Shown one piece after another: positions 12,244 through 33,930 of a stretch of DNA of 64,000 nt. The notes under the pieces were generated by a model. It was not told where the DNA came from. It saw nothing but the letters and a program-made list of their open reading frames with translations, and searched no databases. Each line of letters begins with the position of its first letter. Within the stretch, counting starts at the first letter, position 1. The translations under genes and the position numbers were made by a program. The DNA lies in contig JARWMV010000046.1 of assembly GCA_030998015.1 (NCBI GenBank), positions 48,264 to 112,263 of the forward strand, written 5' to 3'. Source of the DNA: Ceratorhiza oryzae-sativae (taxonomy: Eukaryota; Basidiomycota; Agaricomycetes; Cantharellales; Ceratobasidiaceae).

Positions 12244-12900
12244 TCAGTATGGGCAGTTACAGAACGAGGATAAGGTGCAAAGAACAGTGTTTAGAGGTGC
12301 TCCTTTGAGCATTTTCATCGTCTGGAGTTTGGAGCCCTCTTCATTTTTGCACAACGGTGCATGTTTCCTGGACGCATACAAGCAGAGGGGGGCAGCAGTG
12401 GCGAAGCAGCCGAGCAATCCCAGTATGGAACCCCTTGGACCTCGCTTATCTACCCTAAAATATCTCAGAAATGCCTCACTTCGCCAAGGCGGGATCATTC
12501 ATGCCTAGAGCGCGGCAGAGCCAGCCCGGCGCAGGCAGAATAGGAGCGCAAGTCCTTGCGTAGGGTCAAGCCGACCAAACAGACCTGCTCTCAACCTCAC
12601 GTGATGGGTTGGTTGGCTTCCACCGCGCCGAGTCGAGTTTAATTCATCATTCGGGCTATATCAGAGTGTGCTCCTCGATTCCCGAATGCATCACCGAAGT
12701 ATTGAACCATTAAAAATGTGCCATAAAACGACTATCCCGAGCCTGGCTCGATGTCACTTGACTAGCGACGGACCCAAATCTTATGGCGGCACCCAGACTC
12801 GCGCCGACGGTCCAGCTAGATTAAATGCCAAGCAACGGCCAGCACATACGCCCGGAGTAGCAGTGAGCGGGGGACTATTCTGCTAGGCTATAAGACCACC
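12244..12900 (+). promoter_or_regulatory. Conserved upstream module of family copy A
   Basis: This region is homologous to the sequences upstream of copies B, C and D. It includes a CACGTG motif near 12600 and ends in the core element GGCTATAAGACC (TATA near 12889), about 45 bases before the ATG. A minus-strand open stretch (12498-12244) also has counterparts in the other three modules; it contains a short hydrophobic segment and is either a relic or part of a divergent transcript. Confidence 0.65.
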
Positions 12901-12936
12901 GGGGGAGAGACATGAATCTGTCGCAGCGAGCTCAAG

Positions 12937-14944
12937 ATGTACCTCCCCCGTCCTCTTGCGCTCGCTTCTGGCTGCCTCAAGTCGCTCCTGTTCGCTGCCA
13001 TGTCCAGCGATAACCTGCCTTCTGCAATCACGCTTGCCTCTGTTGACGTTGGGATCCGTGGGGCCCACTTGGCGACGTAAGTAGATGGCCGCTGACTGGC
13101 CGACATCCTGCCTCTGACGGATTCCTTCTTCAGATATGTGGGTCTGAGCCGGGCCGGTCTGCAGCTACCGGTGGGCCTGTTCTTGCCACCGCCGGCGCCA
13201 ATTACAGACACGGAGCTGGCGCTGTACGCGACGCCAGTGGCCGCCGCCGTCTGGAGTCCGAGCGTCGATGCCATAGACGCCCTCGTCAAAACTTGGACCA
13301 AGGCTGCGTCGACTATTATTCCCATCCACAGGGCGGTTTTCCGCCGTACTGTCGAAAATATGACGCGGTCGTATGGCCGTTATACCCAACCCTTGCGTCA
13401 TGCACCACCCCTGCTTGGTCTGATGACTTTGCAGGACGACTATTCCTATACCCATAACTATAGCCAATCGGCCATTCAACATACTCCCCTTCACTCTCCT
13501 CTCTCCTCTCCTCTCTCCTCTCCTATCCTCCTCCCTATCAACTCTCCCTCTGGCTGGCCCATACATCCTACCTCGTCGTTCGCTGATCCATTCCAGTCCC
13601 AACCATCCCTCTCGACCACTGGAACTACCTCTGCTCCCCCTCTGTCGCCGACGTCGGCCACGGTTGTTCTCGGGCAATGCACGCCCTATCGTGTGCTTCG
13701 CTCTCTGGGAGACACAGTGCTCGAGATTGACCTCGAAGACCACCCATCGCAGGCGATGATTGATTACAAGCGCATACTGGATGAGCTAATCTTGGACGAA
13801 CTCGAAGAACCGAAGGAGAAGACCAAGGTGTTTGTGGAGTATCGGCCACCCCCGTGCACCGAGGACAGCTGTGCACTGGTCGTCTATGTCGAACCATCGC
13901 AGGTGATCTATGACTATATTATCGACGGCTGGGTTCTTTTATGGTGCTGTCATATTTGCATCGGTACGTTATGGCACCCTTCTTATCAGTGTTCGAGGTA
14001 TACTGAGCGTAACTCTAGTTGTCTTCTTCATAGTGCGCGCCTGCTCTATGCTCTATCAAATGATTCGACGGGTTCTTCGTTTATTGTACAGTCCGTGGTT
14101 CAGTCTAACGAATGTTGGAGCTTTTACTGATTCGTTGTCCCATTAGGCACGCTCACATATATCTTGGAATTAATCAGGTCGATGTTGGAAGCATTGGTAC
14201 GAATCATAATGGTTATATGCGGTATGTAAATGTGCATTCCAGAGTCTACATGAGAATAATTCAGCGTTAGGTTGGCGTTTTATCCCTTATCCAGCTGAGA
14301 TACAAGGCGGCGCTCCGGTCGTCGAATCCCCCTCCCTCACTAGATCCCTTCAACTCCCCGTGCTAGCCTCACCTGCAGTCCACCACAATCCAAATACCAC
14401 CCCGATCCCGATTCCAGCCGCAGATGGACCGCACCGGGTGACGGGCTCCAAGCCTGGGTTGAAGAAAAAGAATGAGAAGCGCCACAAGAAAAAGGCGAAG
14501 GGGACCGAAACCCGCGAGGGGGATGCTCCTGGTCCAGCCAATATCCCACTTCCCAGGGATGACGGTGAGTGGGGCCTAGTACTAGACTCCAACCCGGTGG
14601 TGCAACCCACATCTGTTGCTCCACCCCTCGTGCTCACCCTGGGCGCCCATGATTACCCTTCGACAATCGACCCAGCCACCATCCCCACTTCCCCAGACGA
14701 CATGACGTCTTCACCGCTGCCTCCCACGCCGATGATCGATGCATCACCACCCACCCCAATCGTCGATCAAACAAACATCCCCCCACCCGAAGAAGACATA
14801 GGAGGTCGATGGGAAACAGTGGTAAAACGAAAGCCCTGGCGCCGCGTTGTTCCGGCTCCAGAAGCAGAGCCCACTATAGAGCTGAAGGGGGTCAAAGGGA
14901 AGAAGGCTAGGAGGGGAAAGGATACGGGAAAGAAGAAGGCGTAG
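12937..14944 (+). CDS. Cluster family protein, copy A (putative membrane protein, unknown)
   Basis: Five exons (12937-13076, 13134-13963, 14019-14090, 14147-14221, 14265-14944) join in phase to 598 residues; introns are 43-57 nt. The family is not recognised. Block 1 (about 1-107) includes YVGLSRAGLQLPVG and VWSPSVDAIDALVKTWT. A variable Ser/Pro-rich part follows, with CTCTCCTCTCC minirepeats in the DNA. Block 2 (about 226-302) has LGQCTPYRVL, an acidic LDELILDELEEP stretch and YRPPPCTEDSCALVVY. Hydrophobic segments lie at about 309-340 and 350-375. The tail is Pro/Thr-rich, with a basic patch KKKNEKRHKKKAKG at 439-452 and a conserved WETVVKRKP motif starting at 555. Exon 3 ends at the unusual donor GTCCGT. 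Membrane insertion is inferred from hydropathy only. Confidence 0.8.
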
Positions 14945-15123
14945 GCATGCTGGAAAGAGCAGCGAGGTGTAGGAGAGGAAGGACAATCCAACAATTCAGC
15001 ATCAAAGAGACGACCCCACTCCACGACGCCCATCACGTCCATCACACCCGATCGAATCCGAGCATGACGCCGATGTCACCCACCTCCGGACGAGACCTGG
15101 TATGCGTGCCGACATTGATTTGA

Positions 15124-15175
15124 CCGTCCAGGGCCACCCATGCTAGCTGCTGGCCCCAGCCAGTGTGGGGGACGG
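15124..15175 (+). repeat. Imperfect palindrome downstream of copy A
   Basis: A GC-rich imperfect inverted repeat runs from CCGTCCAGGGCCACCC to GTGTGGGGGACGG with a short loop. Recognisable copies follow each of the six family members (17201, 22469, 23633, 25605 and 31030). It is one of the best-conserved non-coding parts of the unit and could form a hairpin in the 3' part of the transcript. Confidence 0.7.
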
Positions 15176-15739
15176 TTAGTGCGATTGTAGGCAGGCGGTA
15201 CTAGGGATCGGAAGGAGCGGCGACTGGATCCCCCGTCTGCTTGGTCGAACTTATCATCCGACCCCCAATCCGACTTGATTTCGTCGTCTCGAATGCACTT
15301 CAACCCCCTTCCGCGTGCAACTCCTCGTTGCCAGCTTGCTCTCACTCCTAGACTACCAATTGTCCCTTCAGCACATGAAATTCCCAGCCGAGGCGATGAA
15401 CTCATTCTGCCACAGTTGCAAAGGAGCAAATCAACGTGCCTTTGGCACAATTTTAAGTTATTTCGTCCTCATCTCTTCTCTCTCTTGTTTTTGATCTCGT
15501 TCTCATGCTTTGTCTCTTTTCAGTATTTCAGTTGGTCTATGCTTCGTTCTTGTCTTTTCGGCCCGTGTCTCCTTTTCTTTTTCTCTTTTTTCCTTTCGCT
15601 TTCTCATCTTGTTTGCCACCTCGTGATCGTTTGCTAATTTGCTTTGGTCTTTCCCCGACTCAAAATATAGTATCCTGTTTCAATTATTTCCTTCTCCGTA
15701 TCTGGTGCTATGCCGGGCTACTGGTCGACACTCGGCTCG

Positions 15740-17021
15740 CTCTGACTTCGATGAGTCTGCAGGGAGAGTCTTCCTGTCACACCCACCATAACCGAACCTG
15801 CCATAACCATCACCTGCTCTACTCCTCCACACCTCCAATTCCGCCTGATAACCCCCCCCCCCGCTCAAACTGGCTCATACACTCCATCCCCGGTCCTCTT
15901 GCCAGTTATCAAATCACTTCGGTCTCCCCGGTTTCGTGATCGACTGAAGAGTCCTATTCGGGAATCGCCGCACCGGCATCAGTAAGCTATTGTTCCTATC
16001 TGTGTTGTGTCGAGCGTCTACTAAAACACAACTCAAGTCTGTCTTTTTTTCGAAACATGCGCTTGCTCTCCAGTTTATCAGATAGTCAAGTAGACTGTCT
16101 AGGTACTGCAGTGGGTGGTTTATCGTGCCCTCAGTTGAACCCTGTACTAATTTCTTGCGTAGGTGCGCTCGTGTGCAATTTCGGCCTCATGAATAACAAA
16201 TTAGGAGTGTCGGCTGGGATTTCCATGGCTATATGCGGTATGTCGATTAACATATTCAATTATCCAGTTGGGTTGATTGCGTTCTCGTGTCGTTTCTAGC
16301 CTGACTGCCGGTGCCGTATTGGGCCTCAATATTCCCTCCCACTTTCTCTGGCCGTTCTGCACTCTCCGCCCCTGCCGCTTCCATTATTCACCTTAACCCC
16401 GACTCAACTTCGATCAATAAACCTGATGGACTGGTTCATATACTCCCCTCGGAGTCTACATCCAAGATCAACAAGAAACAGCGCAACAAGACAATGAAGC
16501 CGACGGCCAGCAAGCGTGGGAATTGCGGTTGGCCATGCGACAATCTCGCCCCCCAAGGGCAATGGGCTTCGGGGTCCGGTAGTAGATTTCAACCTACTCG
16601 TACCTCCAACAATATCTATTCCACCACTCTTCCCCCCCTGCCCCTCCCCCTCCACCAAATGACATGACCACCCCTCGACTTCCGACTCGGCGAAAGTCCC
16701 TTTACCCATAGGCGATGACCCGGCTACGTGTATACGGACCTGTGCAACCGTATTCCATCATAGTCCTTGATTCGACGGACATTCCACCAATCGGGCGTCG
16801 GCGGGGTGTTGGCCGGCGATGCCAATATCTCGTCTCCATCCACGCCAGGACTGCTGTGCTCTGGGCCTACTGAGGATGACGGGGGCGGCTGAGAAATGGT
16901 AGTCAAACGAAAGCCCTCGTGTCTGTTCGTCAAGTTCCAGGGAGGTGGGGATGATGAAGCCAATGGATGGACTGTCGTCAAGATCGGGAGGAGAGCGAGC
17001 AAAACAAAGAAGAGCGGGTAG
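15740..17021 (+). pseudogene. Truncated cluster family copy E
   Basis: The 5' half, including block 1, is missing. The relic begins within the exon-2 variable region near 15750 (ATGAGTCTGCAGGGAGAG corresponds to the segment before the Tyr/His/Ser-rich stretch). Exon 4 is preserved exactly at 75 nt (16163-16237) with both splice sites. The exon-5 equivalent opens with a stop (G|CC TGA). Near the end a decayed WETVV-like motif, followed by WTVVKIGRRASK, marks the tail up to TAG 17019-17021. A pyrimidine-rich tract (about 15440-15640) separates it from copy A. The same arrangement occurs on the other strand with copies C and F. Confidence 0.7.
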
Positions 17022-17200
17022 GCAAGCCAGAGAATTCAACGAGGCGCAAGGCAGGAAGTTCTACCGAGCAGACAACATCTACAAGACGATGGCACCCTTA
17101 CGACAATAACAACCCTCCATACCCGGCCCAGCGGGATCACAGCGCCGAAGCCTACTTGCTCTGGATGAGTGCTGTTATGCTGTACCTTCATGGCGCCGAT

Positions 17201-17251
17201 CGTCCAGGGCCACCCATGCTGGATGTTGGCCCCAACCAGCGTGGGGGATGG
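17201..17251 (+). repeat. Imperfect palindrome downstream of copy E
   Basis: This is the same GC-rich inverted repeat as at 15124, here with a few substitutions (GTCCAGGGCCACCCATGC at its left end). It is followed by a pyrimidine-rich tract at about 17540-17760. Confidence 0.65.
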
Positions 17252-17838
17252 CCGATGCCGTTGTAGGGAGGCCATACGGGTCATTCGAAGGAGCGGTGGC
17301 TCGACTCCCCGTCTGTTCGCTCAACCCCATCGACACTTCCAGCCCAACCCGATTCCGTTGTCGTATCCATATACATCCTGATGCCCTCCCTTCCTTGTCC
17401 TCGCCGCCAGCTAGTTGCCATTCCGCTCACGTCACCCGTTCTCCCGGACTACGAAAACATCGGACATGAGCGATGCTTACACCCCGCCACAAATGCAAAA
17501 GAGCCAATCGAGGTGTATATGGCACCAACCTAACTAATTTTATCTTCGCCCCTGGTCTTGGTCTCTCGATATCCCCCCTTTTCGCTGGCTGCTTCATTTA
17601 GTTGCTCCCTCGTTTGTGCCTTTCGGGCTCTCCATCCCTCCCCTTTTTATTTTCTGTTTCCACTCGTTTATTGTATCCCTGATGTCTCGCTGATTGGGTT
17701 TATTATTTTCCTAAATAAAACCATAATACCAGGTTTTGCTCATGCGGATACCTTTTTTTAGCTTCACGTATACCTCTCGTTTATTAGAGGCTTCCTTATT
17801 CTTAATGCTTGTACGCCGCATTTTCGTTGTATATTTAA

Positions 17839-17854
17839 TGCCCCCTGGAGGGGC
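17839..17854 (+). repeat. Terminal hairpin GCCCCCTGGAGGGGC of the repeat unit
   Basis: A short GC hairpin is followed by TTTTCAGCC. Homologous hairpins end two other units on the minus strand (23077-23090 and 30402-30417), each preceded by a related sequence containing CTTAATGCTTGTA or TTTAATA. Similarity between units fades beyond it, so it probably marks the 3' edge of the duplicated unit or its transcript end. Confidence 0.5.
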
Positions 17855-17869
17855 TTTTCAGCCGGCCCA

Positions 17870-18560
17870 TGTCTGAGATTCCGACAGTGCTCCGGGCCTC
17901 AAAGTTCTAGGATAGGGTCAACTCAATGGTGCCATTCAAAAGCTTCACCTAAATGATCGCATATAGGCGGCGAGCCCACATCGAGAGTTTGACGGGCTAA
18001 GATGGCAACAAAGCATTGGGCGAGCATGTAGCCTGAGAGGCATTCATTTCATTCAATCCTTGGGACTGTGCAAACGAGTCGCATATAAAAGTGGGTTGTT
18101 TCTGCAAAGGGATGACTATTACATGGGAAACCCCCCATCTAAGGGGAGTAGAGAGGATTTTATCGTAGGCTTTAAACCAGGAATATGATCGGCGGATTGG
18201 CGACCGGCTATCCAAAAGCATTAGGGTTCCGTTAGGGTACCACACTAGGTAGTTCGGCGTATGGTTAACGTTTGATCGGGAAAGGACGTTGAGTAGGTTC
18301 TGCTGATCCTCGGAAAGCGGCCAAGCCCAAATGCTGAATCGAGCATCACACATTTGCGTTCAATGCGCACCCATATTAGCTCGGTTAATGATTACTACCA
18401 CGGCAAGTATCTCAGTTCTCAATCGGAGAAGCATGATGCTGTTGGTTGGAAGAAATCCCCGCGTTAACGAGCAGGGTGGCGGGCCAGTTACTCACTAACC
18501 TGATATGCCATATCCATCAACCACCTTGCGCTTCGCTCGTAACGGTCTTACCAGCCCGTT
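17870..18560. other. Spacer between unit A/E and gluconokinase relic
   Basis: A minus-strand open frame of 118 codons (18353-17997) is the only notable feature. It begins with ATG and has a mixed, plausible composition, but no recognised motif and no homologous copy in the other units. It is not called as a gene. Confidence 0.4.
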
Positions 18561-18565
18561 CTCAG

Positions 18566-19110
18566 GGCGTATCCAGCCCCTGAAAATCCACCATTGCTGA
18601 CAGCCTCGCTCCAGCACTCGACGTCCCATTCAAAGCCAGCAACGACTTTCGTCCAGCCGAAAGCGTTGCCAAAACGCCACGCAGCGAGCCTCTCATTGCC
18701 ACACATCGCGCTGTGGCTCTACAAAATCAAGGAAAATGGATCCGATGTGACGCAAAGCCAAGGTATGAGCACATTCGCCATCACTGATCAATAGTCTGAG
18801 GGCACATTGAGACCCGCTGAGACAAACCGATGGATCTCGTGCCACCCAGTCCAGGACAGGACGGTTTATGTGATCTAGATGAACATTCTACGCCTGGAGG
18901 TGAGTTGAATAATGATGAGACATATGTGGCGAATACAGATTTGCATTAGAGGCATATTTTGTTTTCATTAAAGGACAAGCCGAAGTCGCTTTGGATCGGA
19001 TGCGGAAGCGGACGCGAAGTCCGGGAATAAGAGTATTCTGGAGAGCCAGCTTGCGACATCGGAGGGTGTGACCGGCGATGATTGGGTGGTGGGATGTTGG
19101 GTTCTGGTCC
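18566..19110 (+). pseudogene. Decayed gluconokinase duplicate
   Basis: The sequence parallels exon 2 of the gluconokinase at 11366. It begins right after CTCAG with GGCGTATCCAGC in place of GGTGTATCCGGC and keeps the order of recognisable segments: AAATCCACC of the P-loop, the GTTGCCAAAACG stretch, GAACATTCT (matching GAGCATTCT), GTGGCGAATACAG, and CATTAAAGGACAAGCCGAAGTC. The end, near GGCGATGATTGGGTGGTGG, matches the region before the frameshift of the parent. Multiple indels and stops make it non-functional. It sits just upstream of copy B as the parent sits upstream of copy A. Confidence 0.8.
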
Positions 19111-20238: not shown

Positions 20239-22283
20239 ATGTACCTCCCCCGTCCTCTTGCGCTCGCTTCTGGCTGCCTCAAGTCGCTTCTGTTCGCTGC
20301 CATGTCCAGCGATAACCTGCCTTCTGCAATCACTCTTGCCTCTGTTGACGTCGGGATCCGTGGGGCCCACTTGGCGACGTGAGTAGATGGACGCTGACTG
20401 GCCGATATCCCGCCTCTGATGTTTTCCTTTTTCAGATATGTGGGTCTGAGCCGGGCCGGTCTGCAGCTACCGGTGGGCCTGTTCTTGCCGCCGCCGGCGC
20501 CAATCACGGACACGGAGCTGGCGCTATACGTGACGCCAGTCGCCGCTGCCGTCTGGAGCCCGAGCGTCGACGCCATAGACGCCCTTGTCAAAACTTGGAC
20601 CACGGCCGCGGCGACTATCCTTCCTGTCGACAGGCGGTTTCCGCCGTACTATCGACAAAATGACGTGGTCGTATGGCCACAGTAACAAAACCCTCGCTCG
20701 TCAACCCGTGCTGAGTCCCATTACTCTGCAGGCGATGATGTCTATATCCCCGTTATAACCAGTCCCATCATATCCGTTCTCACTCCCACTCCTCTTCTCT
20801 CTCTCCTATCCTCCCCGGTACAGTACCTCCTCTCCACCAGCTCATGCGCCCTGTCCCCGCGCCACTCGTCCAACTACCCCGGTCCCGACAACCCCTCCCA
20901 CCCTCCGTGTCGCCGTCCGATAGGCCCCGACCGCCGGTTTCAGCAGCTATTCGTCTCGGGCAATGCAGTCCTTATCGCGTGCTTCCTGTCCGAGGAGACG
21001 CCGTGCTCGAGACGGATTTGGAGGACGACTCGGCCCCAGCAATGCTCGATTACGGGAGCATACTGGACGACATTATCCTAGACGAACTTGAGGAGCCGAA
21101 GCGGATGACCAACATGTTCGTGATGTACCGACCCCCTCCGTGCACCGAGGAGAGCTGTGCGCTGGTGGTGTACACCAAGCCGTCAACAGCGACCTACGAC
21201 TATGATCTGGACTGCTGGGTCCTGTTCTGGTACTGTCATGTCTGGACTGGTATGTTGTGACGCTGCTGCAGGCTTGTGTGACACGTGCTAAGCGAAATTC
21301 TAGTTGGCTTTTTCGTAGCGTACGTGTGTTGCATGATGTATCGAATAGTTCGTTGGATCGCTCGAGTCTCTTTCAGTGAGTAGTACAGGATGCCCAGGAT
21401 CAAGCATTTGTCTGATTGGTCCCTTAGGTGTGCTCATGTGTACTTTCAACTTGCCCAAGATAATGCTAGAAATTTTGGTGCAAATTTTGCTGGATATATG
21501 CGGTATGTAGTCGAGCACACCAGGGTGTTCGTCACACTGAATCATCGTTTAGCCTGGTTTGACAGCCCTTCCCCAACTCCGTCACTCGAATTCCCCTCTC
21601 TCGGCGGATCCCTCCCAGTCTCCGTCTCATCGACCCCCACCGCCAACCTCGACCCGCACCCCAGTTCTCCCTCAATCACACTCCCCGATGCTACAGCTCA
21701 TACTATTCGCTTCGAGTCTGCATCAAAGAAAAAGAAGAAAAGGCGGGACCGGAAAAAGAAGAAAACGGCTGAAATGCGCGAAGGACTTGCACTCGATCCA
21801 GCGAGTCTCCCCCTCCCCGATGATGACCCGGAGAAGGTCCTAGAAAAAGAATCCAACCTGGCGGAGGCACCATCGACCGTTGTTCCATCGACTATGGTCT
21901 CCCCCGGCGCACTCGACCGTCCCTCAGTCATTCACCCACCAAGCGCCCTCCACTCCTTAGACGACGAAACAACCGCGCCGCTCCCTCCCTCGCTGCCTGT
22001 CAACGCACCAACACATACCTCTGCTGTCGATCTCAAAACTACTACCTGCTCGGAAAATGCAATAGACTTGGCTGTCAGTGCCAATGTCAATCCCTCTCTG
22101 GCCCCAGCACGTCCAGGCTCACCACCCATTGAGGAGGATGAAGGTGGATGGGAAACGGTGGTGAGGCGAAAGCCCCGGCGCACTTTCATGGCAGCTGCAG
22201 AGGCCTTGCTAATGACCGGGCCAAAGGAGGCGACGAGGATGAAGGTTGGGAGGAGAAAGGGGAGAGGCGGGAAGAATGTTTAG
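20239..22283 (+). pseudogene. Cluster family copy B, frameshifted
   Basis: The exon layout equals that of the intact copies: 20239-20378, 20436-21249, 21304-21375, 21428-21502 and 21553-22283, with the same phases at introns 1, 3 and 4. Exon 2 is 814 nt instead of the 815 of its closest relative, copy D. Compared with D it lacks 2-3 bases around 20632-20641 and single bases near 20731 and 20752, and gains 3 near 20822. The middle of exon 2 is therefore out of frame. Block 2 and the membrane segments recover, and exon 5 is open to TAG 22281-22283, with a KKKKKRRDRKKKK patch and WETVVRRKP. Several changes lie in homopolymers, so sequencing error is an alternative. Confidence 0.75.
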
Positions 22284-22468
22284 GCGAGATGGAAATAGCG
22301 GCCAGGTGCACGAAAGGACGAAACATCAATTGCATGGCATCAGTGAGACGACCTTTACCCTTACGACGACAACCACTTCCCCACTATCGTACCCGACCCT
22401 ACCCAAGCATGACGCCGAAGTCACCCACCTCCAGATGAAAACCGGTATGCGCACCCAGGTGTCTCCAC

Positions 22469-22520
22469 CCGTCCAGGGCCACCCATACTGGCTGTTGGCC
22501 CCAGCCAGTGTGGGGGACGG
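22469..22520 (+). repeat. Imperfect palindrome downstream of copy B
   Basis: This is the same 3' palindrome as at 15124 and is very similar to it, ending GTGTGGGGGACGG. The pyrimidine-rich tract and terminal hairpin seen after other copies are not found here, so the unit appears truncated near 22700. Confidence 0.65.
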
Positions 22521-22689
22521 TTGGTGCCATTTTAGGGAGGCGGTACTGGGAATCAGAAGGAGCGGTGACTGGATCCCCCGTCTGCTCAGGTCAAATCCAC
22601 CATTACTCTCTATCCATCCCAATCAAGTCACCGTGTCTGTGCACGCCCCGATCCCGTTGTCCTACCTCCTGAGCCACTATGCGTTGAAT

Positions 22690-23060: not shown

Positions 23061-23076
23061 AAGGGCTGGTTGCGAA

Positions 23077-23090
23077 GCCCCTCCAGGGGT
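23077..23090 (-). repeat. Terminal hairpin of the C/F unit
   Basis: GCCCCTCCAGGGGT, the counterpart of the hairpin at 17839, lies at the far 3' edge of the minus-strand unit carrying copies C and F. The preceding ~350 bases (in minus-strand sense) match those before 17839. Confidence 0.5.
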
Positions 23091-23632
23091 TATTAAATAT
23101 ACAACAAAAACGCATTACAAACGTATATAAGAAGTCAGAGGTAGCCGCATGGACGAAACCTGTTATGACGGTTTTAGTTGGGAAAATAACAAACCCAATC
23201 ATCAAGACATCACGGATACAATAAACAAGCAGAAACTGAAAATAAAGAGGGGGAGGCACGGGGATCTCAACAGGCGCAAATGAAGTACGAGGAGATGAGG
23301 AGATAGTAAAAAGGAGGACGTTGAGGGGTTGGGGCCAGGGACGAAGATAAAGTAAGTTATGTTGGTGCTATGTTCACCTCGATTGACCCTTTTGCATCTG
23401 TGGCAGGGTGTAAGCATCGCTCATGCCCGATATTTTCGTAGTCCGGGGGAACGGGTGACATGAGTGGAATGACAACCAGCTGGCGGCGAGGACAAGGGAG
23501 GGCATCAGGATGTATGCGGTTACAACTGCTGAATCGGGTTAGGCTAGAAGTCGCAACGGGGTTGAGCGAACAGCCGGGGAGTCGAGCCAACGCTCCTTCG
23601 GATCACCCGTATAGCCTTCCTACAATGGCATC

Positions 23633-23690
23633 GACCATCCCCCATGCTGGCTGGGGCCAGCAGCCGGCATGGGTGGCCCTGGACGATCGG
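23633..23690 (-). repeat. Imperfect palindrome downstream of copy F
   Basis: The same 3' palindrome, here CCCATGCTGGCTGGGGCC with its partner GGCATGGGTGGCC. It follows relic copy F in the minus-strand direction. Confidence 0.65.
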
Positions 23691-23869
23691 CGCCATGAAG
23701 GTACAGCATCACAGGACTCGTCAGGAGCAATTTGGCTTTGGTGCTATAATGTAGCCGGGTCGGATATGGAGGGTTGTTATCGATAGGGCGATCTTGTGTT
23801 GCCGATCTCGGTAGCCCTGCCTGCCTTGCAGCTCATCGCTTTCTCTGTCTCGCTTGCGCCCTCTTCTTT

Positions 23870-25060
23870 CTTTCCTCCAGTCCGCTAGCCTTCATCCACA
23901 GTGCGTCCTTTGGCTTTGTCACTTCCTGGAGCTCCAACAAACGGACGCCAAGACTTTCGTTTGATCATGGTTTCCCAACCACCCAGTCGTCCCCAGTAGG
24001 CCGAAAGCATGGCAATGTCGATGTGGAGGGGAACGTGGTGTCTGCATTTATGTTCAAGCCGCAGTCGACAGCCAGCGGTAAAGTATGTATCAAATTAGGG
24101 GCTAATTGGAGAGGTCTGTAGAGGTGCGGTGGCTCATGGCGATGGGTGGGGGTTGTGTGCATTTTTGGAGAAGGGGGGGGGGGGACGGTGGGGTATTAAT
24201 TGTCGTAGGTACCACCAGGTTGAATTCTACTACCGGATCCCAAAATCCGCTGTCTTAGGGGAGGGGTCCCCCAGGGTCAATAATGACTCCTGCATGCTTG
24301 CCAGCCATCTGCTTCCTTTTTTTTTTTGCAGTTTCTTGCTGATTGTTGGTGCAGACTCCGAGGGAATAATATGAGCCACTGAATCGGGTATATTGATTGA
24401 AGATGGGTGGGGTTAAGGTGGCAAGGGCGGGGAGTCGGGAACGGTCGAGGAGGGAGGGAAGATTTAGGGCCACAATGGCACTGCGACTTTCGGCTAGAAA
24501 CCACATGAGAACCCAATCAGTCCAATCAGATAATCCGAGATATTAATCAGCATACCGCATATAACCAAGGAACTTCTGACTGATACTCATAAGGTATGTT
24601 TTATGCCGAAACTGCACATGAGTGCACCTACGCAAAGAATCAGTACAGGATTCGACTGTGGACACAGTAAACTACCACCCACCCTACAATAATCGGATAG
24701 TCCACCTAATCATTCGATAAACTAGAGAACAAGCACATGTTTTAGAGAAAAAAAAGATAGACTAGAGTTGTGGTTTAGTAGGCGCTCGACACAGCACAGA
24801 GAGGAACAGTAACGTACCAATGCCGACATGACAACTCTCAAATAGGATCCAAGAGTCGATTACGAAACCGTAGAGACCGAGGTGGGTTGATAAGCAGCGA
24901 GGGGACACGGGGTAAAGGTCATGAGCCGTTCGAGAGGGACGGGTTTCAAGAGAAATTGGAGGAAGTGCAGGAGAGTAGGGAAGGGGATGGATATGGCAGG
25001 CTTGGTTGTGGTGGGTGTGGCAGGAAGAGTACCCTGTAGATTCATTGAGGTCAGAGTGGG
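23870..25060 (-). pseudogene. Truncated cluster family copy F
   Basis: The minus-strand mirror of copy E. It starts within the exon-2 variable region near 25060 (TCTACAGGGTACTCTTCCTG) and lacks block 1. The exon-4 equivalent at 24627-24556 keeps both splice borders but is 72 rather than 75 nt. The tail degenerates, and a WETVV-like remnant is just visible near 23985. It lies downstream of copy C exactly as E lies downstream of A, with the same pyrimidine-rich tract between (purine-rich on plus, about 25140-25330). Confidence 0.65.
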
Positions 25061-25604
25061 TTGAGTATTGACCAGCAGCCCGGCATAGCGCCTGATGAAG
25101 GTAAGCGTACAAGTGAAACATGATACTATAGTTCGAGTCGGGAAAATACCAAAACAAATTAACAAGACGTAACGAGACAGCAAACGAGACGGGAAATAAA
25201 TAAAAAAGAAGAAACTCAAACCAAAAAGACACGAACAAGGCATGAATAAAGCGAACTATTTAAGAGCGACAACACACGAGACCCAAATCAAGAACAAGAG
25301 AGGAGAGATAATGAAAAAGAATAACTTGGAATCGTGCCAAAGGCAAATGTATTTGTTTCTTTGCAGCCGTAGCGGAATGTGTTCATCGCCCGCAGCTGGG
25401 TATTTCGTATTTTGAAGGGATAATCGGCAATGCAGGAGGAGCGAGAGCAAGCTGGCGGGGCGGAAGACGAAGGAAATTCGAGTGCCTTCAGAGAAGACGA
25501 AATCGAGGCGGACCGGGAGATTGATGATGAGTTAAATGAAGCAGATGGGGATCCAGTCACCGCTCCTTCCGATCCCTAGTACCGCCTGCCTACGATCACA
25601 CTAA

Positions 25605-25657
25605 CCGTCCCCCATGCTGGCTGGGGCCAGCAACCAGCATGGGTGGCCCTGGGCGGT
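25605..25657 (-). repeat. Imperfect palindrome downstream of copy C
   Basis: The same GC-rich inverted repeat, between copy C and relic F, with CCGTCCCCCATGCTGGCTGG at its plus-strand left end. Confidence 0.65.
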
Positions 25658-25830
25658 CGAAGTGATGCAAGCACGCATACCAGGTCACGTCTAGAGGCTG
25701 GCAACATTGGCACCATGCTCGGGTTTGGTCGGATATGATGTGATGGGGTCGTGGAGTGGGGTCGTCTCTTTGGTGCTGAACCCCCAGATAGTCCTTCTTC
25801 TCCTATGACTCACTGCTCTTTCCGGCTTGC

Positions 25831-27825
25831 CTAAACGTTTTTCTTGCCCATTTCCTTTCCTCTTCTACCACTCTTCCCTTCAACCCCGCTCGGCTCTCTT
25901 TTGGGCTCTGCTTTTGGGGCCGGAACAACACGGCACCAGCGCTTTCGTTTTACTACTGTTTCCCACCCCCCTCCATGGTCTTCTTCGGGCGGGGGGGCGC
26001 TTGTTGAATCGACAATTGCGGTCGGTGAGGATGCGTCGATCAAAGGAGTGGGGGATAGCAGTGTAGGCGTTGTCTTGTTGTCTTGGGGGGCCAGGATATT
26101 GGCTGGGTTGATTGTAGAAGGGCAGTCGCGTGCATCCAAGGTGGGCACAAGGGGTGGAGCAACGGCCGCGGATTGTACCACCGGCTTGGAGTCTGGTACT
26201 ACACAGCACTCCCCGTTGTCCCTGGGGGGAGCGATGTTTGCTTGGTCAAACACATCCCCCTTGCGCGTTTTGGTCCCCTTCTTTTTCTTATGGCGCTTCT
26301 CGTTCTTTTTCTTCAGCCCGGAGTTAGAGTGCGTCTGCTGATGTGGTGCGTCTGGGGCTGGCGACGGGGTGGCGACGGGATTGGGGTTATTGCTGGTGGC
26401 GGGGACGGCTGGTACGGGGAGTTGGAGGGATATAGGCAGGGAGGGGGATTCGACTGACGGAGCGCTGCCTTGTGCCCCAGCTGGAGAAGGCATGAAACCC
26501 CAAGCTGATGTTTAATTAGTCAAACGGACACTCTGAAAATGCACATCTGCATACCGCATATAACCAGTATGATTCGCACCAACCCTTCCAACATCGACCT
26601 GATCAAGCCTAAGCCACGTACGAGCATACCTAAGGGATCAATCTATCAGTCGAAGTTCTGATTTCTGGCACGTTAAACACTAACTGTATAATACTCGAAG
26701 AATCTGCCTGACCACTCGATAGACCATAGAGCAGGCGCGCACAATGTAGAATGTGGCTAGAGTTCCGCTTAGTACAAGTCGAACATGGACCAGGAAGTAC
26801 CATAACGTACTGATGCAAATATGACAGCACAATAGAAGAACCCAGCAGTCGAGGCTGTAGTTGTAGATCACGCTCGACGGCTCGACATACACGACCAGTG
26901 CACAGCTGTCCTCGGTGCACGAGGGTGGCCGATACTCCACAAACATCTTCGTCTTCTCCTTCGGTTCTTCGAGTTCGTCCAAGATTAGCTCGTCCAGTAT
27001 GTGCTTGTAATCAATCATCGCCGGCGATGGGTCGCCTCCGAGGTCGATCTTGAGCACTGTGTCTCCCAGAGAGCGAAGCACACGATAGGGCGTGCATTGC
27101 CCGAGAACAACCGCGGCCAACGTCGGCGATAGAGGGGGAGCAGAGGTAGTTCCAGTGGCTGAGAGGGATGGTTGGGACTGGAATGGATCAGCGAACGACG
27201 AGGTAGGATGTATGGGCCAGCCAGAGGGAGAGTTGATAGGGAGGAGGATAGGAGAATCGAAAGGAGAGTGAGGGGGAGTATGTTGAATGGCCGATTGGCT
27301 ATAGTTATGGGTATAGGAATAGTCGTCCTGCAAAGTCATCAGACCAAGCAGGGGTGGTGCATGACGCAAGGGTTGGGTATAACGGCCATACGACCGCGTC
27401 ACATTTTCGACAGTACGGCGGAAACCCGCCGTGTCAATGGTGATGATATTTGACGCAGCCGCGGTCCAAGATCTGACGAGGGCGTCTATGGCATCGACGC
27501 TCGGACTCCAGACGGCGGCGGCCACTGGCGTCACGTACAGTGCAAGCTCCGTGTCTGTGATTGGCGTCGGCGGCGGCAAGAACAGGCCCGCCGGTAGCTG
27601 CAGACCGGCCCGGCTCAGACCCACATATCTGAAAAAGGAAAACATCAGAGGCGGGATGTCGGCCAGTCAGCGTCCATCTACTCACGTCGCCAAGTGGGCC
27701 CCACGGATCCCGACGTCAACAGAGGCAAGCGTGATTGCAGAAGGCAGGTTATCGCTGGACATGGCAGCGAACAGGAGCGACTTGAGACAGCCAGAAGCGA
27801 GCGCAAGAGGACGGGAGAGGTACAT
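25831..27825 (-). CDS. Cluster family protein, copy C (putative membrane protein, unknown)
   Basis: Five exons (27825-27686, 27628-26811, 26756-26685, 26629-26555, 26504-25831) join in phase to 592 residues without stops. Exons 1, 3 and 4 have the same lengths as in copies A and D (140, 72, 75 nt). It is closest to copy A through the variable region and tail (SGLKKKNEKRHKKKKG, then WETVVKRKRW). Block 1 has one change in the helix, DALVRSWT for DALVKTWT. The hydrophobic core reads CWVLLLCCHICIS then TFYIVRACSMVYRVV. Its conserved upstream module and TATA (CTTATA at 27868-27873 on plus) suggest it is transcribed. The function is unknown. Confidence 0.8.
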
Positions 27826-28430
27826 CTTGAGCTCGCTGCGACGGATTCACGTCTCTCCCCCCGTAGTCTTATAGTCCAGCAGAGTAGTCCCCCGCTCACT
27901 GCTACTCCGGGCGTATGTGCTGGCCGTTGCTTGGCATTTAATCTAGCTGGACCATCGGCGCGAGTCTGGGTGCCGCCATAAGGTTTGGGTCCGTCGCCAG
28001 TCAGGTGACACCAAGTTGGACTGACGACAGTCGTTGTGTGGCGATTCTTTAACGGTTTAGCACTTGGGTGGTACCTTCTGGAGGTCGTGGGTACACTCTA
28101 ACATAGCACAGACGATACATTGGACTGGACTGGACGTGGTGGAAGACAACCAGACCGTCACGTGAGGATGAGAGTGGGTGTGTTTGGTTGGCTCGAGCTC
28201 ACGTGAGGACTTGCACTCCTGTTTTACCTGCGCCGGGTGGTCCTCCGCCGACGCTCCACAGTCTCTCGGCGCGAGTGGACCCGGCTTGGCAACGATGAGG
28301 GATTTATGAGATATTTTTGGACTGATAAGGGAGGTCCAAGGACTTCCGTACTGGGATGCCTTGGTTGCCTGACTGTGGTCTATGACCTTCTTGTATGCAT
28401 GAATCAACATACCAAACCACACGGGCCCAA
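27826..28430 (-). promoter_or_regulatory. Conserved upstream module of family copy C
   Basis: Nearly identical to the module of copy D over about 550 bases, better conserved than the coding variable regions. It contains the TATA element at 27868-27873 and CACGTGAG motifs near 28160 and 28200 (read from plus: CACGTGAGG). Similarity stops near 28390-28430. Confidence 0.65.
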
Positions 28431-28957
28431 TCCCAAATGACTAAATGGCTCAAAATACTTACTAAAACTGTTTCCCCGTGTCTACCCTGTATATAACGAA
28501 TACTTACTTACCCAGACAGGCAAGACGCACCCCGTCTTGCAGGCAGTATAAATCGTATGAATGCGGTTTATGCGGGCTCTGGTCCAGAAAAATGGGCTGG
28601 CAATCTCTTGTTCAGCCTGTTATGTTACACAGAAACTCGGGTCTAACCTACCCAATAACCCTAACAACCACGGTTACGGTTTTGGTAAGTTTGAAACACA
28701 CCACAGAGGAGGATATCCCTCGATCAACGGCCCATTCTATGAATACTACGTACTAAACATAGCTCAACTCTCGCGCTTCCTCAATTCTTCAACGACATGT
28801 CGACGCCTCTCCTACCAATCTGCCTCCACATTTACAACCACAACGGCCTCCCCATTCCTACCGGTTGGATCCTGCAACGCCTCTAGCTGACAACACCCGC
28901 CGTCACAAAGCACCCACTTCACCCACTTCTCCTCAGCATCTGATCCAAAATAACCTC
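28431..28957. other. Spacer, nothing supported
   Basis: Low-quality open frames only. One internal CCCTAAC is isolated and not a telomere tract. Confidence 0.45.
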
Positions 28958-28962
28958 GAGGT

Positions 28963-29234
28963 TGTAGAATACAAATATACATATTACATAAATATATACA
29001 TATCGAATATGCCAGAATGAACTAGCAATTGCATGACTCGTGTAGTACGATTCTTGTACTTACTGTAACGTTCTACAATGTACTAGAACGTCTCCTTTTC
29101 GTGTATATAAGGAGCTCGCTCTGCAGGTAGCCATTCGTACACTCGAATATAATATACTTTTATTCATCTTAAGCACACGGCGCTCCGCGCATATAGCGTG
29201 ATATACATATCTATACGTAGTATAGATATCAACA
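28963..29234 (+). mobile_element. Solo LTR with 5-bp target duplication GAGGT
   Basis: A 272-bp segment begins TGTAGAATAC and ends ATATCAACA. GAGGT lies directly on both sides (28958-28962 and 29235-29239), the mark of an LTR-retrotransposon insertion reduced by LTR recombination. A TATATAAGG promoter sits at 29103-29111. An older copy of exactly the same length is at 47981-48252. It is not related in sequence to the copia LTR at 34300. Confidence 0.85.
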
Positions 29235-29239
29235 GAGGT

Positions 29240-30395
29240 GGCTTCTCAAAGGCAATATATCCTTTGAACGGAGGCCCTGCATTCGCTGCACACAGTTTAA
29301 AAGTGCTAACTCGCCTCCCTCCCCCTAATGCTCGCTCAGAAGCGCAAGCTGGTCCTGGCCAAGAGCCGAGTGTCCTCTAATTTGGCGAAGTCACACCAGA
29401 GATTGGTGACAAGTTCGCCGTGTGACATTTTGGCAACGTTTTCGGCCATGAGAGGCCATCCTGGTCTTCACGTTGGTCTCCAAGCGTTTGGATGAAATTT
29501 CCGCCTCGAGACGTCTTTCCGAGTCAGATGTGCCACAGGGAAGGTTCGGCTGAGCCGTGTAATTGGAGCGAAGCAGGGGTTGTTGGTAGATCAAGGGATG
29601 ATCGACATATGACGTATGTTGCTTGGAATGAATGCCATGACGCGAAAATAACAACACAGTCTCTCCTCCCTTGGGTCCCATTTTAACCATGCACAATGAA
29701 GAAGCTCACCATCATAATAGTTATTCAAGAGCTCTGTCTAGGTGAACATCGAATACAAATGTACACAGATCACCAAGTTGGGTGACAAAAATTAGCTAGA
29801 AGCGTAAAACCAATTTGCTGAAGACAAGGAGACTTCATGAAACACAGGAGTCAAAGTGTCAATCATGATGTCAGTGTTAGCTTGTGGCGAGCTCTAAGCC
29901 ACGGTATCGTCAATGACCTCGAGGATCGACAGAGCTCAAGTTCCTTCCCGATCAAACATGAGCCGTATGCGGAACTATTCTAGACGATAGCCCAACAAAT
30001 AGCTTACCCACAAATGAACTAGCCAGAACTAACTCTAGCTTTTAGTCGCTTGGTCCAGAGTCCATCGCTGGCGCTGTATCCGAGGGCATGATATGTTGCG
30101 CTGTGCTACACTGAGTTAGGATGTAGGGAATGCACTAAATCCTGTTTATTCTCGAACAAACCTCCATATATCATACCATTTGATTTTTTGCATGAATTGG
30201 ATAGGCTGTGTGTATTTCTGTCCAGATCTACATAGCGCGGCTGGAACTTGTTCCCACCATTTCACATTTCTCGATGTGGGCCGCGTCTGCTGCCTGCGAT
30301 ACAAGTCAGATCCTCTCCCTTTTGCCACCATTGGGGTCGCAACAGTCTCGCCCCCATAGCACAGCGTTAGATTGACAGCTCAAGCGTGGGCCATA
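29240..30395. other. Spacer, nothing supported
   Basis: A minus-strand frame (29696-29391) and others are short and lack motifs. No repeats shared with the cluster were seen before the hairpin at 30402. Confidence 0.45.
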
Positions 30396-30401
30396 TGAAA
30401 A

Positions 30402-30417
30402 AGCCCCACCAGGGGGT
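30402..30417 (-). repeat. Terminal hairpin of the D unit
   Basis: Read on minus, ACCCCCTGGTGGGGCTT follows CTAATAAATCC, so a poly(A)-type AATAAA lies just before the hairpin. It is homologous to the elements at 17839 and 23077 and is the best hint that the hairpin lies near the end of the family transcript. Confidence 0.5.
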
Positions 30418-31029
30418 AAGGATTTATTAGAAAGAGGAAGACTACAAGCATTAAGAATACAAACACATCACCTCTTAGAACACGGTATACAGGAAGCGGG
30501 AGGAACATCCAAACAGTTAGTGATACACGATCTTTCAGTTTCAGTCCGGAAGACACCAAACCTCATTAGCAAGACAATAGTGAGATCGAAAACGAAATTA
30601 GAGAACAGGAAAATAAAACGGAAACAGAAACAAAAACAAGAACAAAAACTCGAAAGATACAAGAAAACAAAATCCAAGCGAGGAAACCAAATCAAGAGGG
30701 AAAGAGATTGAGAAATGAAAAAGAAACAGAATAGGAAACGGCAGGATGAAAAGAAAATAACTTGGACCGGCGACAGGAGTGCCTCGGTTTGTTTTTGTAG
30801 AGCCGTGATAGGGTGTGGTTGTCGCACACGGCCAAGATTTCGATATTCGATGATTTGGGCGGAATGGGAGGGAGGTGGCAGAGAGAATGAGGGACGGGAT
30901 GGGGATGCGCTCAGAGACGACGACTTGATTGGGATGGATAGAGGGTAATGTCGGATTTGACCTGAGCAGACAGGGGATCCAGTCACCGCTCCTTCTGATC
31001 CCCAGTACCGCCTCCCTAAAATGGCACCA

Positions 31030-31082
31030 TCCGTCCCCCACACTGGCTGGGGCCAACAGCCAGCGTAGGTGGCCCTGGACGG
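31030..31082 (-). repeat. Imperfect palindrome downstream of copy D
   Basis: The same GC-rich inverted repeat as after the other five copies. Between it and the hairpin at 30402 lies a purine-rich (plus strand) tract at about 30500-30740, matching those after A and C. Confidence 0.65.
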
Positions 31083-31320
31083 ATGAAACCACCTAGGTGC
31101 GCATACCGGTTCTCATCCGGAGGTAGGCAACCTCGGCGTCACGCTCGGTCGGGTCGGGTCGGATATCACGGGGGGGGGGGGTTGTCGTCGTAAGGGTAGG
31201 GTTCGTCTCTCTGATACCGTTCGCTGGATATTCCGCCCTTTCCTACAGCTCGCTGCTACTTCCATCCCACCTACCCTTTCCCCTCCCATCCGTCATTCCT
31301 GTCGCCTCCTTTGGTCTAGT

Positions 31321-33312
31321 CTACACCAAGGCCTCTGCAGCCGCAACGAAACGGCGCCGAGGCTTTCGCCTCACCACTGTTTCCCATCCGCCTCCATCGT
31401 CTTCAATGAGTAGCGAGCCTAGACATCCCAAGGCCGGAGTGGGATTGAACTTGGCACCGACAACCAAGCCCCTGTCGTCTTCCAAGCGGGGAGCAGTTGT
31501 GGGATCGACGACAACGGCGGGTGTGGATGCGTCGATAGGGAGCGAGGGAGGCAGCGCCGCGGTTTGGTCGTCATGGGGGGAGAGAGGAGTGGTGGATGGG
31601 TGGACAGTTGAAGGACGGTCGGGTGTGGTAGGGGAGACCATGGACGATGGAGCAGTGGCTGGTATCGTCGCAGACTTGCGTTCTGGTACTGGATCCAGTT
31701 CCCCGTCATCATCGAGCACCGGGATATTCGCTGGATCGAGTGCAACCCCCTCCCGTATTGCAGCATTTTTCTTCTTGTTCCGGTCCCGCCTCTTTTTGTT
31801 TTTCTTCGATACAGGCTCGGAGCGAATAGTGTGAGTCGCTGCGTCGGCGAATAGGATCTGGGTGGTGGTGGGGTTCGCATCTGGGTTGAGAGCGGGGATA
31901 GGTGAGGCGGGCACCGGGAGGAATTTGGCGAGGGAGGGAGAATCGAGTGCTGGAACTGCGCTTTGCGCCGGAGTTGGGGAAGTCATATCAAAACAGCCTA
32001 ACGATAAATTAATCTAACGAACGCCCTGGTATGGTTGAATACATACCGCATATAGCCAGCGCAACATGCACCAACATTTCTAATACGATTTTGAGCAAGT
32101 CGAAAGTACACACGAGCGCACCTAAGGGAGTAATCAGCCAAAACTTTGATCCTGGGCATCTTATACTACTTACTGAATGACACTCGAACCATCCAACAAA
32201 CCATTCGATACACCATGGAGCAGAGGCAAGCTACGAAAAAGCAAACTAGGGCTCCGCTTAGCACACATCATAGATAGAATATAGTAGCGCCATAACGTAC
32301 CGGTCCAGACATGACAGTACCAGAACAGGACCCAGCAGTCCAGATCGTAGTCGTAGGTTGCTGTTGACGGCTTGGTGTACACCACCAGCGCACAGCTCTC
32401 CTCGGTGCACGGAGGGGGTCGGTACATCACGAACATGTTGGTTATCCGCTTCGGCTCCTCAAGTTCGTCTAGAATAATGTCGTCCAGTATGCTCCCGTAA
32501 TCGAGCATTGCTGGAGCCGAGTCGTCCTCCGAATCCGTCTCGAGCACAGTGTCTCCTCGAACAGGAAGCACGCGATAAGGGGTGCACTGCCCTAGACGAA
32601 TAGCCGCTGACACCGGCGGTCGGGGCCTATCAGAGGGCGACGCGGAGGGTGGGAGGGATTGTTGGGACCGGGGTAGTTGGATGAGCGGCGCGGGGACAGG
32701 GCCCATGAGCTGGTGGAGAGGTGTGATACCGGGGAGGATAGGGGAAAGAGAAGAGGAGTGGGGGTGAGAACGGATATGATGGGACTGGTTATAACGGGGG
32801 ATATAGACATCATCGCCCTGCAGAGTAATGGGACTCAGCACGGGTTGACGAGCGAGGGTTTTGTTACTGTGGCCATACGACCACGTCATTTTGTTGATAG
32901 TACGGCGGAAACCCGCCGTGTCGATAGGAAGGATAGTTGCCGCAGCCGTGGTCCAAGTTTTGACAAGGGCGTCTATGGCGTCGACGCTCGGGCTCCAGAC
33001 GGCAGCGGCGACTGGCGTCACGTATAGCGCCAGCTCCGTGTCCGTGATTGGCGCCGGCGGCGGCAAGAACAGGCCCACCGGTAGCTGCAGACCGGCCCGG
33101 CTCAGACCCACATATCTGAAAAAGGAAAACATCAGAGGCGGGATATCGGCCAGTCAGCGTCCATCTACTCACGTCGCCAAGTGGGCCCCACGGATCCCGA
33201 CGTCAACAGAGGCAAGAGTGATTGCAGAAGGCAGGTTATCGCTGGACATGGCAGCGAACAGAAGCGACTTGAGGCAGCCAGAAGCGAGCGCAAGAGGACG
33301 GGAGAGGTACAT
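31321..33312 (-). CDS. Cluster family protein, copy D (putative membrane protein, unknown)
   Basis: Five exons (33312-33173, 33115-32301, 32245-32174, 32121-32047, 31997-31321) join in phase to 592 residues. Block 1 and block 2 are conserved. The variable middle and the tail resemble copy B rather than A or C, including SKKNKKRRDRNKKK and WETVVRRKPRRRF. Membrane-type segments are DCWVLFWYCHVW, CFFVACLCSMVYRMV and LEMLVHVALAIC. This is the simplest unit: upstream module, gene, palindrome, purine/pyrimidine tract and hairpin, with no relic copy behind it, so it may represent the ancestral arrangement. The function is unknown. Confidence 0.8.
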
Positions 33313-33930
33313 CTTGAGCTCGCTGCGACGGATTCATGTCTCTCCCCCTGCAGTCTTATAGTCCAGCAGAGTAGTCCCCCGCTCACTGCTACTCCGGGCG
33401 TATGTGCTGGCCGTTGCTTGGCATTTAATCTAGCTGGACCATCGGCGCGAGTCTGGGTGCCGCCATAAGGTTTGGGTCCGTCGCCAGTCAGGTGACACCA
33501 AGTTGGACTGGCGACAGTCGTTGTGTGGCGATTCTTTAACGGTTTAGCACTTGGGTGGTACCTTCTGGAGGTCGTGGGTACACTCTAACATAGCACAGAT
33601 GATGCATTGGACTGGACTAGACGTGGTGGAAGACAACCAGACCGTCACGTGAGGATGAGAGTGGGTGTGTTTGGTTGGCTCGAGCTCACGTGAGGACTTG
33701 CACTCCTGTTTTACCTGCGCCGGGTGGACCTCCGCCGACGCTCCACAGTCTCTCGGCAAGAGTGGACCCGGCTTGGCAACGATGAGGGATTTATGAGATA
33801 TTTTTGGACTGATAAGGGAGGTCCAAGGACTTCCGTACTGGGATACCTTGGTTGCCTCGCTGTGGTCTATGACCTGCTTGTATGCGCGGAGAAATTGTGA
33901 CATGGCATGTACAACTACAGCAGACGGCAA
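33313..33930 (-). promoter_or_regulatory. Conserved upstream module of family copy D
   Basis: It carries TATA as CTTATA at 33355-33360 on plus and CACGTG motifs near 33647 and 33687. Over hundreds of bases it differs from the C module by only scattered changes. The divergent DEGFMRYF-containing open stretch lies at about 33720-33900 on plus. Confidence 0.65.

Follow-up and report, generated by a model that had tools for sequence, protein, structure and literature searches.

We analyzed a stretch of 64,000 nucleotides (nt) from the basidiomycete fungus Ceratorhiza oryzae-sativae (here, the window; C46:48264-112263) in a genome of 48.8 Mb and 253 contigs. Between window positions 12244 and 33930, there are six copies of an orphan gene family, and downstream of each of them lies a block of ca. 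113 nt that is a structured RNA, with compensatory changes beyond those found in controls. On balance, and with some reservation, we favor the view that the family is lineage restricted and that its mRNAs have in common a structure acting in cis in the 3' untranslated region (3' UTR), from which we infer a regulatory role. A sequence-only reading of the window had described the genes and overlooked the block 3' of the stop codon. At each of the loci, this block is more conserved than any other feature or stretch of DNA. Two repeat families located outside the coding parts in a first repeat scan (D4 and D5) belong to it.

In this genome, the linkage between the element and the gene family was exclusive. 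The element follows 21 of 22 loci (the 6 window copies plus 16 dispersed loci), amounting to 27 copies when both haplotype contigs are counted, and it lies on the strand of the gene in all six window copies, all six copies of contig C59, and 15 of the 16 dispersed loci. The only examined locus that lacked it was the truncated, frame-broken C241a (L037, C241:375000-380000). A motif census of the whole genome gave 29 matches, of which 27 lay at family loci and 2 were identical and unrelated (a control pattern gave 1), and no element was found in it apart from a family gene. Along similar lines, a DNA search of the genome returned 28 rows. Those on the strand of the gene numbered 24 and were all located at family loci, and the other 4 were the reverse strand of such elements. 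With a covariance model built with 15 elements, 37 matches were listed. Of these, 27 were full length, lay on the strand of the gene, and came from 23 sources (E values of at most 8.2e-13); the other 10 were weaker and were the reverse strand of the same elements.

The W-TV tail motif was readable in 12 loci, and in 11 of them (C1, C3, C235a, C252, C8, C240, C7b, A, B, C, and D, using the next in-frame stop), the distance from the stop codon to the element was 173 to 243 nt; for truncated copy F, it was 203 nt. Position and strand fit a 3'-UTR element; in most loci read, it lies ca. 170 to 240 nt after the stop, most likely within the 3' UTR. The bounds of the block were sharp. Among 11 loci of clade 1, the mean pairwise identity was 0.82, versus 0.51 to 0.61 in the two adjacent blocks; among the 5 loci of a divergent second clade (L031 to L035, that is, C240, C243, the two on C245, and C7b), it was 0.83 versus 0.56 to 0.66, and for all 16 loci together, it was 0.73 versus 0.41 to 0.54, with values of 0.34 to 0.52 in the blocks one step further out. 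Element and protein diverged in step (Mantel r, 0.88; p, 0.0001; 16 loci), and between the two clades, the element retained 64% nucleotide identity, versus a mean of 28% for the protein (exon 2). Promoter similarity to D was not detected in the second clade, while the 3' element was retained.

Farther downstream, we observed a hairpin-like end (CCCCTGG-GGGGCTT) 581 to 651 nt after the elements of D (30420-30450), E (17832-17864), and F (23072-23105). It is preceded by T/A-rich sequence and is a possible transcript end. It was found only at D, E, and F (the row for C repeats that of F), and many of the other locus sequences end too early to include it.

In the predicted fold of the element, 8 pairs form the outer stem and 13 the inner stem; between the two, on the 5' side, lies a bulge (AGGGCCA), and the inner stem is closed by the loop UUGGCCC. 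A second hairpin, which is less certain, comes after it. RNAalifold, applied to a model-free alignment of 21 copies, returned the same main hairpin unprompted, with double changes in 12 of the 23 predicted pairs. Considering the hairpin together with the bulge-loop pairing in 21 sequences, 93.2% of the cells were paired, and double changes appeared in 47 cells, compared to a mean of 15.8 (standard deviation, 3.9) after shuffling, a number reached in 0 of 500 shuffles. By pairs, 11 of 27 had double changes (4 of 500 shuffles), and the covariation score was reached in 0 of 500. Controls with the partners slid gave 2 to 8 cells with double changes. In the model-free alignment of 15 sequences (A6), the count, which includes the second hairpin, was 13 cells versus a shuffled mean of 5.3 (0 of 500). 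G-U pairs were frequent, and the double changes maintained pairing.

The six invariant bases of the bulge (GGGCCA) and those of the loop (UGGCCC) are complementary and could be paired in 125 of 126 cells. The computed energy of the isolated bulge-loop duplex was -12.0 kcal/mol, and under nested folding of the 21 copies, the mean unpaired probability was 0.21 to 0.99 in the bulge and 0.37 to 1.00 in the loop. These segments nearly always pair and yet never covary, so that they may form a pair within one RNA or between two, or be bound by a protein. The element did not correspond to any Rfam family. The 64-kb window with all six copies gave no Rfam match at the gathering score, and with one copy at an E value of ≤5, there were five rows, the best of which (E value of 1) was a microRNA model with 17.3 bits versus a gathering score of 94. 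Resemblances to signal recognition particle RNA and to ribozymes were rejected, since no Rfam family fits. We also discarded a coding exon, on the grounds of alignment gaps of one and two bases and of changes that follow base pairing.

Several observations weigh against the reading that we favor. The shuffle statistics leave in the relatedness of the copies, and the model-fitted alignment (A8) is biased towards the structure; A6 and a further alignment (A4) were made without the model, the latter being one base out of register for the divergent clade. In the middle of the inner stem, three pairs do not form in 5, 9, and 6 of the 21 sequences. The fold of a single copy had a z score of only -1.04 relative to shuffles, which is not significant, so that the case rests on covariation, and for the bulge-loop pairing, covariation provides neither support nor refutation. 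Locus C7 is atypical, with a distance of only 39 nt between the next stop and the element. In Ceratobasidium sp. AG-Ba, which holds the only relatives of the family that we found (see below), 13 of 14 protein tails showed no match to the element, although the gene models may end before it; the remaining one, P0005, counts in favor, since it continues into sequence that matches the translated element (score of 89, the maximum of 60 shuffles being 54). On the protein side, a mean predicted local distance difference test (pLDDT) score of 35.8 gives no fold in support of a protein function, and the model of dispersed locus C235b stops at 522 amino acids (aa).

Regarding the genes themselves, the sequence-only reading had proposed an amplified cluster of six copies, of which A, C, and D would be intact, and the gene models rebuilt from the DNA agree with it in coordinates and counts (Table 1). 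The three intact copies have five exons each, with exons 1, 3, and 4 of 140, 72, and 75 nt in all of them and exon 2 of 830, 818, and 815 nt in A, C, and D, respectively. Intron phases were 2,1,1,1 (modeled for A and D and derived from the exon lengths for C), the same in all three, as had been stated. Protein lengths, previously given as 592 to 598 aa, were 592 aa for C and D and 596 aa for A; with other acceptors, C would have 584 aa and A would have 598 (an alternative last acceptor) or 588 (a third one). The description of B as frameshifted also held, with two breaks in exon 2, and so did the truncation of E and F, which affects their 5' side; they align only in part to A (residues 321 to 594 and 169 to 588, respectively), with frame breaks and stops. 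Since the same plan reappears in the dispersed loci C1 and C3, with exons 3 and 4 of exactly 72 and 75 nt, the common exon structure is not due to chance. Intron 1 measured 47 to 57 nt at the loci where it was modeled.

Table 1. Gene copies, 3' elements, and conversion tract in the window (window positions)
Feature	Position	Strand	Remarks
Copy A, intact	12937..14944 (ATG 12937, stop ends 14944)	+	596 aa
Copy A, exons	12937-13076, 13134-13963, 14019-14090, 14147-14221, 14271-14944	+	
Conserved RNA element downstream of A	15122..15234	+	
Copy E, truncated	16037..17012	+	Frame broken; homology may start somewhat earlier
Conserved RNA element downstream of E	17198..17310	+	
Copy B	20239..22283	+	Shared exon plan; frame of exon 2 broken twice
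Conserved RNA element downstream of B	22467..22579	+	
Conserved RNA element downstream of F	23576..23688	-	
Copy F, truncated	23888..25193	-	Frame broken
Conserved RNA element downstream of C	25546..25658	-	
Copy C, intact	25831..27825 (ATG 27825, stop ends 25831)	-	592 aa; mosaic
Copy C, exons	27825-27686, 27628-26811, 26756-26685, 26629-26555, 26504-25831	-	
Conserved RNA element downstream of D	30972..31084	-	
Copy D, intact	31321..33312 (ATG 33312, stop ends 31321)	-	592 aa
Copy D, exons	33312-33173, 33115-32301, 32245-32174, 32121-32047, 31997-31321	-	
5' flank of D with promoter, conversion tract	33313..33880	-	94-99% identical among B, C, and D

The family had not been recognized from its sequence, and database searches did not change this. 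In a collection of 5.8 billion proteins, the only relatives were 14 hypothetical proteins of Ceratobasidium sp. AG-Ba (RhiJN_ and RhiLY_ entries, P0001 to P0014), with E values of 2.9e-60 to 1.9e-21 and a query coverage of 16 to 99% in the best local alignment, indicating proteins homologous over most of their length; aligned to D, they were 30 to 38% identical. A profile search returned the same 14 proteins and no others. They share with the window family the N-terminal block, the LGQCTPYRVLP core, the PPCT-SC motif, the hydrophobic helix, DPASIPLP, and the W-TVV tail, but 7 of the 14 are only 486 to 507 aa long, and 4 of these (P0004, P0009, P0011, and P0012) are without most of the middle linker. 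As a control of taxonomic range, we used the RPAP1 frame located beside the cluster (43612-46722), for which 19 matches were obtained, including 13 entries with the name Ceratobasidium or Rhizoctonia. It was 76% identical to Ceratobasidium sp. AG-Ba, 69 to 71% to five other Ceratobasidium isolates, and 52 to 60% to entries of Rhizoctonia solani, Ceratobasidium sp. AG-I, and C. theobromae, which points to a fungus of the Ceratobasidium/Rhizoctonia type. Given that the control reaches many Ceratobasidium and Rhizoctonia entries and the family protein only AG-Ba, the family seems to be lineage restricted, tentatively, since its absence elsewhere is derived from a word-based search and from gene predictions as deposited.

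Among 16 members, Pfam gave no credible match. Six families appeared in at least one member at an E value of ≤10, the best being EBNA2_Core (2.8e-4 in one member), which we judged spurious because of its proline-rich, low-complexity character, and the next had an E value of 0.31. No PDB sequence matched at an E value of ≤1. No match to a known transposon-encoded protein was seen either, the Pfam searches having detected no transposase, reverse transcriptase, gag, or integrase domain. Therefore, a protein with known domains or of transposon origin was rejected. We found no literature on the family or on the element among the open-license articles in PubMed Central (PMC) that our searches listed. 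Along the protein, the N-terminal block and the core are constrained, the Pro/Ser linker is loose, and the tail is charged and contains a WETVV-K/R motif. Kyte-Doolittle hydrophobic segments fell within residues ca. 306 to 389 in five proteins from the window and the dispersed loci (in C1, only from 344 on). The AlphaFold model of AG-Ba protein P0002, built with 12 AG-Ba rows, showed a single long hydrophobic helix of moderate confidence (pLDDT block means of 53 to 73 at residues ca. 321 to 380, versus the overall mean of 35.8), the rest being poor. The prediction is thus that of a membrane protein, which is probably unstructured for the most part and has one hydrophobic helical region as its anchor.

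In order to describe selection along the protein, dN/dS (the ratio of nonsynonymous to synonymous substitution rates) was calculated by NG86 on A, C, D, C1, and C3 (10 pairs). The core (residues 214 to 325) is under purifying selection, with values of 0.13 to 0.21 in nine pairs and 0.48 in A-C. In the N-terminal block (residues 1 to 105), the ratio was 0.21 to 0.33 in the seven pairs involving C1 or C3, which does indicate constraint, and, inside the cluster, 0.09 (A-D), 0.15 (C-D), and 0.50 (A-C). Over these blocks, no value near 1 was found. The Pro/Ser linker (residues 106 to 213) had values of 0.54 to 1.13, the hydrophobic part 0.33 to 0.82, and the tail 0.35 to 0.73. The sequence-only reading, in which selection acts on fixed domains joined by looser linkers, is therefore backed by dN/dS, but the near identity of the N-terminal block among copies A to D, which it had counted as conservation, is mainly due to recent gene conversion. 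For the pair A-D, dS was 0.15 in the N-terminal block versus 1.40 in the core. A sliding comparison showed that B, C, and D are 94 to 100% identical from ca. -560 to ca. +280, that is, across the promoter, exon 1, and intron 1. Past ca. +280, C-D identity was 53 to 78%, while C-A identity was 91 to 97% until ca. +970, so that C is a mosaic with a 5' part like that of B and D and a 3' part like that of A. Since the tract takes in the promoter and intron 1, protein selection alone was rejected as the origin of the N-terminal identity.

The family is not merely local. Protein D gave at least 58 exon-level matches in the whole genome, which were grouped into the six window copies, six more on contig C59, and at least 16 dispersed loci: C1, C3, C7 (two), C8 (two), C235 (two), C240, C241 (two), C243, C244, C245 (two), and C252. 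The C59 copies are the same six in the same order, 97.4 to 99.1% identical to the window cluster in stretches, and we read this contig as a second haplotype; counted in this way, there would be at least 6 loci here plus the 16 dispersed ones. On C59, A, B, and D are open in frame and C has one frame break, whereas in the window, B is broken and C is intact, so that either the broken copy differs between haplotypes or there are assembly errors. C240 and C7b, 88.7% alike over 3,418 nt, are possibly divergent alleles, in which case the dispersed loci would number 15 rather than 16. Two other pairs, C245a/C245b (88.7%) and C235a/C235b (88.5%), were similarly alike over shorter stretches, but each pair is located on a single contig, so that C240/C7b is the sole allele candidate. 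Intact five-exon models were obtained for C1 and C3. Models of C235a (156 aa) and C235b had early stops, C241a, C244, C7, C8, and C8b looked broken, and clear gene models were not obtained for C252, C241b, C240, C243, C245a, C245b, and C7b.

Next to the cluster, there is a Copia long terminal repeat (LTR) retrotransposon (34300-40271) with gag (34605-35738), pol (35952-40229), and two 283-nt LTRs that are 100% identical. C59 is without it (position 34299 meets C59:49259 and 40267 meets C59:49253, with an overlap of ca. 7 bases). Because of the identical LTRs and the empty site on C59, it is taken to be a recent, haplotype-specific insertion adjoining the cluster. Elsewhere in the window, the A+T-richest part holds an inverted repeat (51689-52588) with 430-nt arms that are 99% complementary and 40 nt apart, and further arms lie at 51424-51695 and 53891-54162 (98%). 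Another inverted repeat (47151-47441) has 122-nt arms, 93% complementary and 47 nt apart. A dynamin-type GTPase gene lies at 7882-10245 on the forward strand (region 7561-10245), and opposite it, there is an open frame of 593 aa (7561-9342) with no Pfam match.

Other explanations of the element were considered. An independent small noncoding RNA gene, with a promoter of its own or derived from the 3' UTR by processing, coinherited with the protein gene and acting in trans, would account for the sharp bounds at ca. 113 nt, for an element better conserved than the protein, and for its persistence after E and F, where the gene upstream is broken. However, the census yielded no orphan element (the two matches away from family loci being unrelated), the distance to the stop was 173 to 243 nt in all but one of the loci read, and Rfam gave no match in the window; E and F are part of the same cluster, and their elements may simply not have decayed yet. 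We consider this explanation unlikely. The frequent G-U pairs and the double changes that preserve pairing are the mark of RNA and make it highly improbable that the block is a DNA element (a recombination or transcription factor site with an inverted repeat). The block does have the form of an inverted repeat, and gene conversion is seen in the cluster, but the conversion tract is found at the 5' end and not at the element.

Equally improbable, in our opinion, is that gene and 3' RNA form or formed a mobile unit in which the RNA is the end recognized by a reverse transcriptase, as in pairs of long and short interspersed nuclear elements (LINE/SINE). It would fit the dispersed copies with a common 3' structured element as well as the common 5' homology limit, which was located 573 to 592 nt before the start codon when D was aligned with seven dispersed loci. 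Nevertheless, the copies keep their introns and element and protein diverge together, which fits duplication at the DNA level; the family carries no transposase or reverse transcriptase domain, and the adjacent Copia element is separate and not present on C59. A selfish system of the wtf type, i.e., the poison-antidote membrane proteins of fission yeast, which kill noncarrier spores and have a poison start codon in exon 2, is brought to mind by several features: the copies are numerous and dispersed, the genes have five exons and encode hydrophobic segments, the haplotypes differ in which copies are broken, and nonallelic gene conversion covers the promoter. Pfam includes a WTF model. The members, which were not compared directly with wtf proteins, gave no credible Pfam match and no wtf match among the Pfam results, and the core is under strong purifying selection. 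In wtf4, the poison promoter is described within intron 1 (PMC9562144), while the short intron 1 modeled here leaves little room for one, and the excerpts available of two wtf accounts (PMC9562144, PMC6526906) mention no 3' RNA. We regard a system of this type as very unlikely.

Under the reading that we favor, a cis-acting 3'-UTR structure shared by the family, each gene would give an mRNA with a family-specific structured 3' UTR, within which the element would be transcribed. A common trans factor, probably an RNA-binding protein, would recognize the invariant bulge and loop, lying side by side or joined by bulge-loop pairing, and would exert joint control of localization, stability, or translation across the mRNAs of the family. 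Meanwhile, gene conversion in the tandem cluster would keep the promoter and the N terminus uniform, leaving the 3' two-thirds free to diverge. A bolder version, to which we assign a low probability, is that GGGCCA and UGGCCC pair the family mRNAs together or form a pseudoknot, so that messages would be gathered at one membrane site and mosaic proteins coassembled. If true, this would represent RNA-guided coassembly of an orphan, fast-evolving membrane protein family, found in our searches only in Ceratobasidium-type fungi. The analysis provides an RNA motif supported by covariation, without an Rfam match and with a near-exact census, attached to an orphan gene family. If this RNA is a cis-control signal, it would offer a handle on the role of the protein and on how paralogs are coordinated during diversification by gene conversion.

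To our knowledge, few structured 3'-UTR elements are common to a whole gene family. One of them, the histone mRNA stem-loop, resembles the element described here in that each family member has a single structure located 3' of its stop codon. In the Rfam searches, the two were not found to be related in sequence or structure, and the window family differs in being orphan and apparently lineage restricted. As for the genes, the wtf drivers of Schizosaccharomyces number more than 20, with six exons and gene conversion that includes promoters, as reported (PMC6526906, PMC9562144), and they resemble the window family in being dispersed, multiexon genes for predicted transmembrane proteins with conversion that spans the promoter. 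In contrast, the window family shows no sequence match to them and has a short intron 1, a constrained core, and a 3' RNA element. Finally, the kissing loops of the bicoid and oskar 3' UTRs (PMC7357161, PMC11567897) also present complementary, exposed G+C-rich segments in a hairpin, although the candidate pairing in the element described here is that of a bulge with a loop rather than of a loop with a loop.

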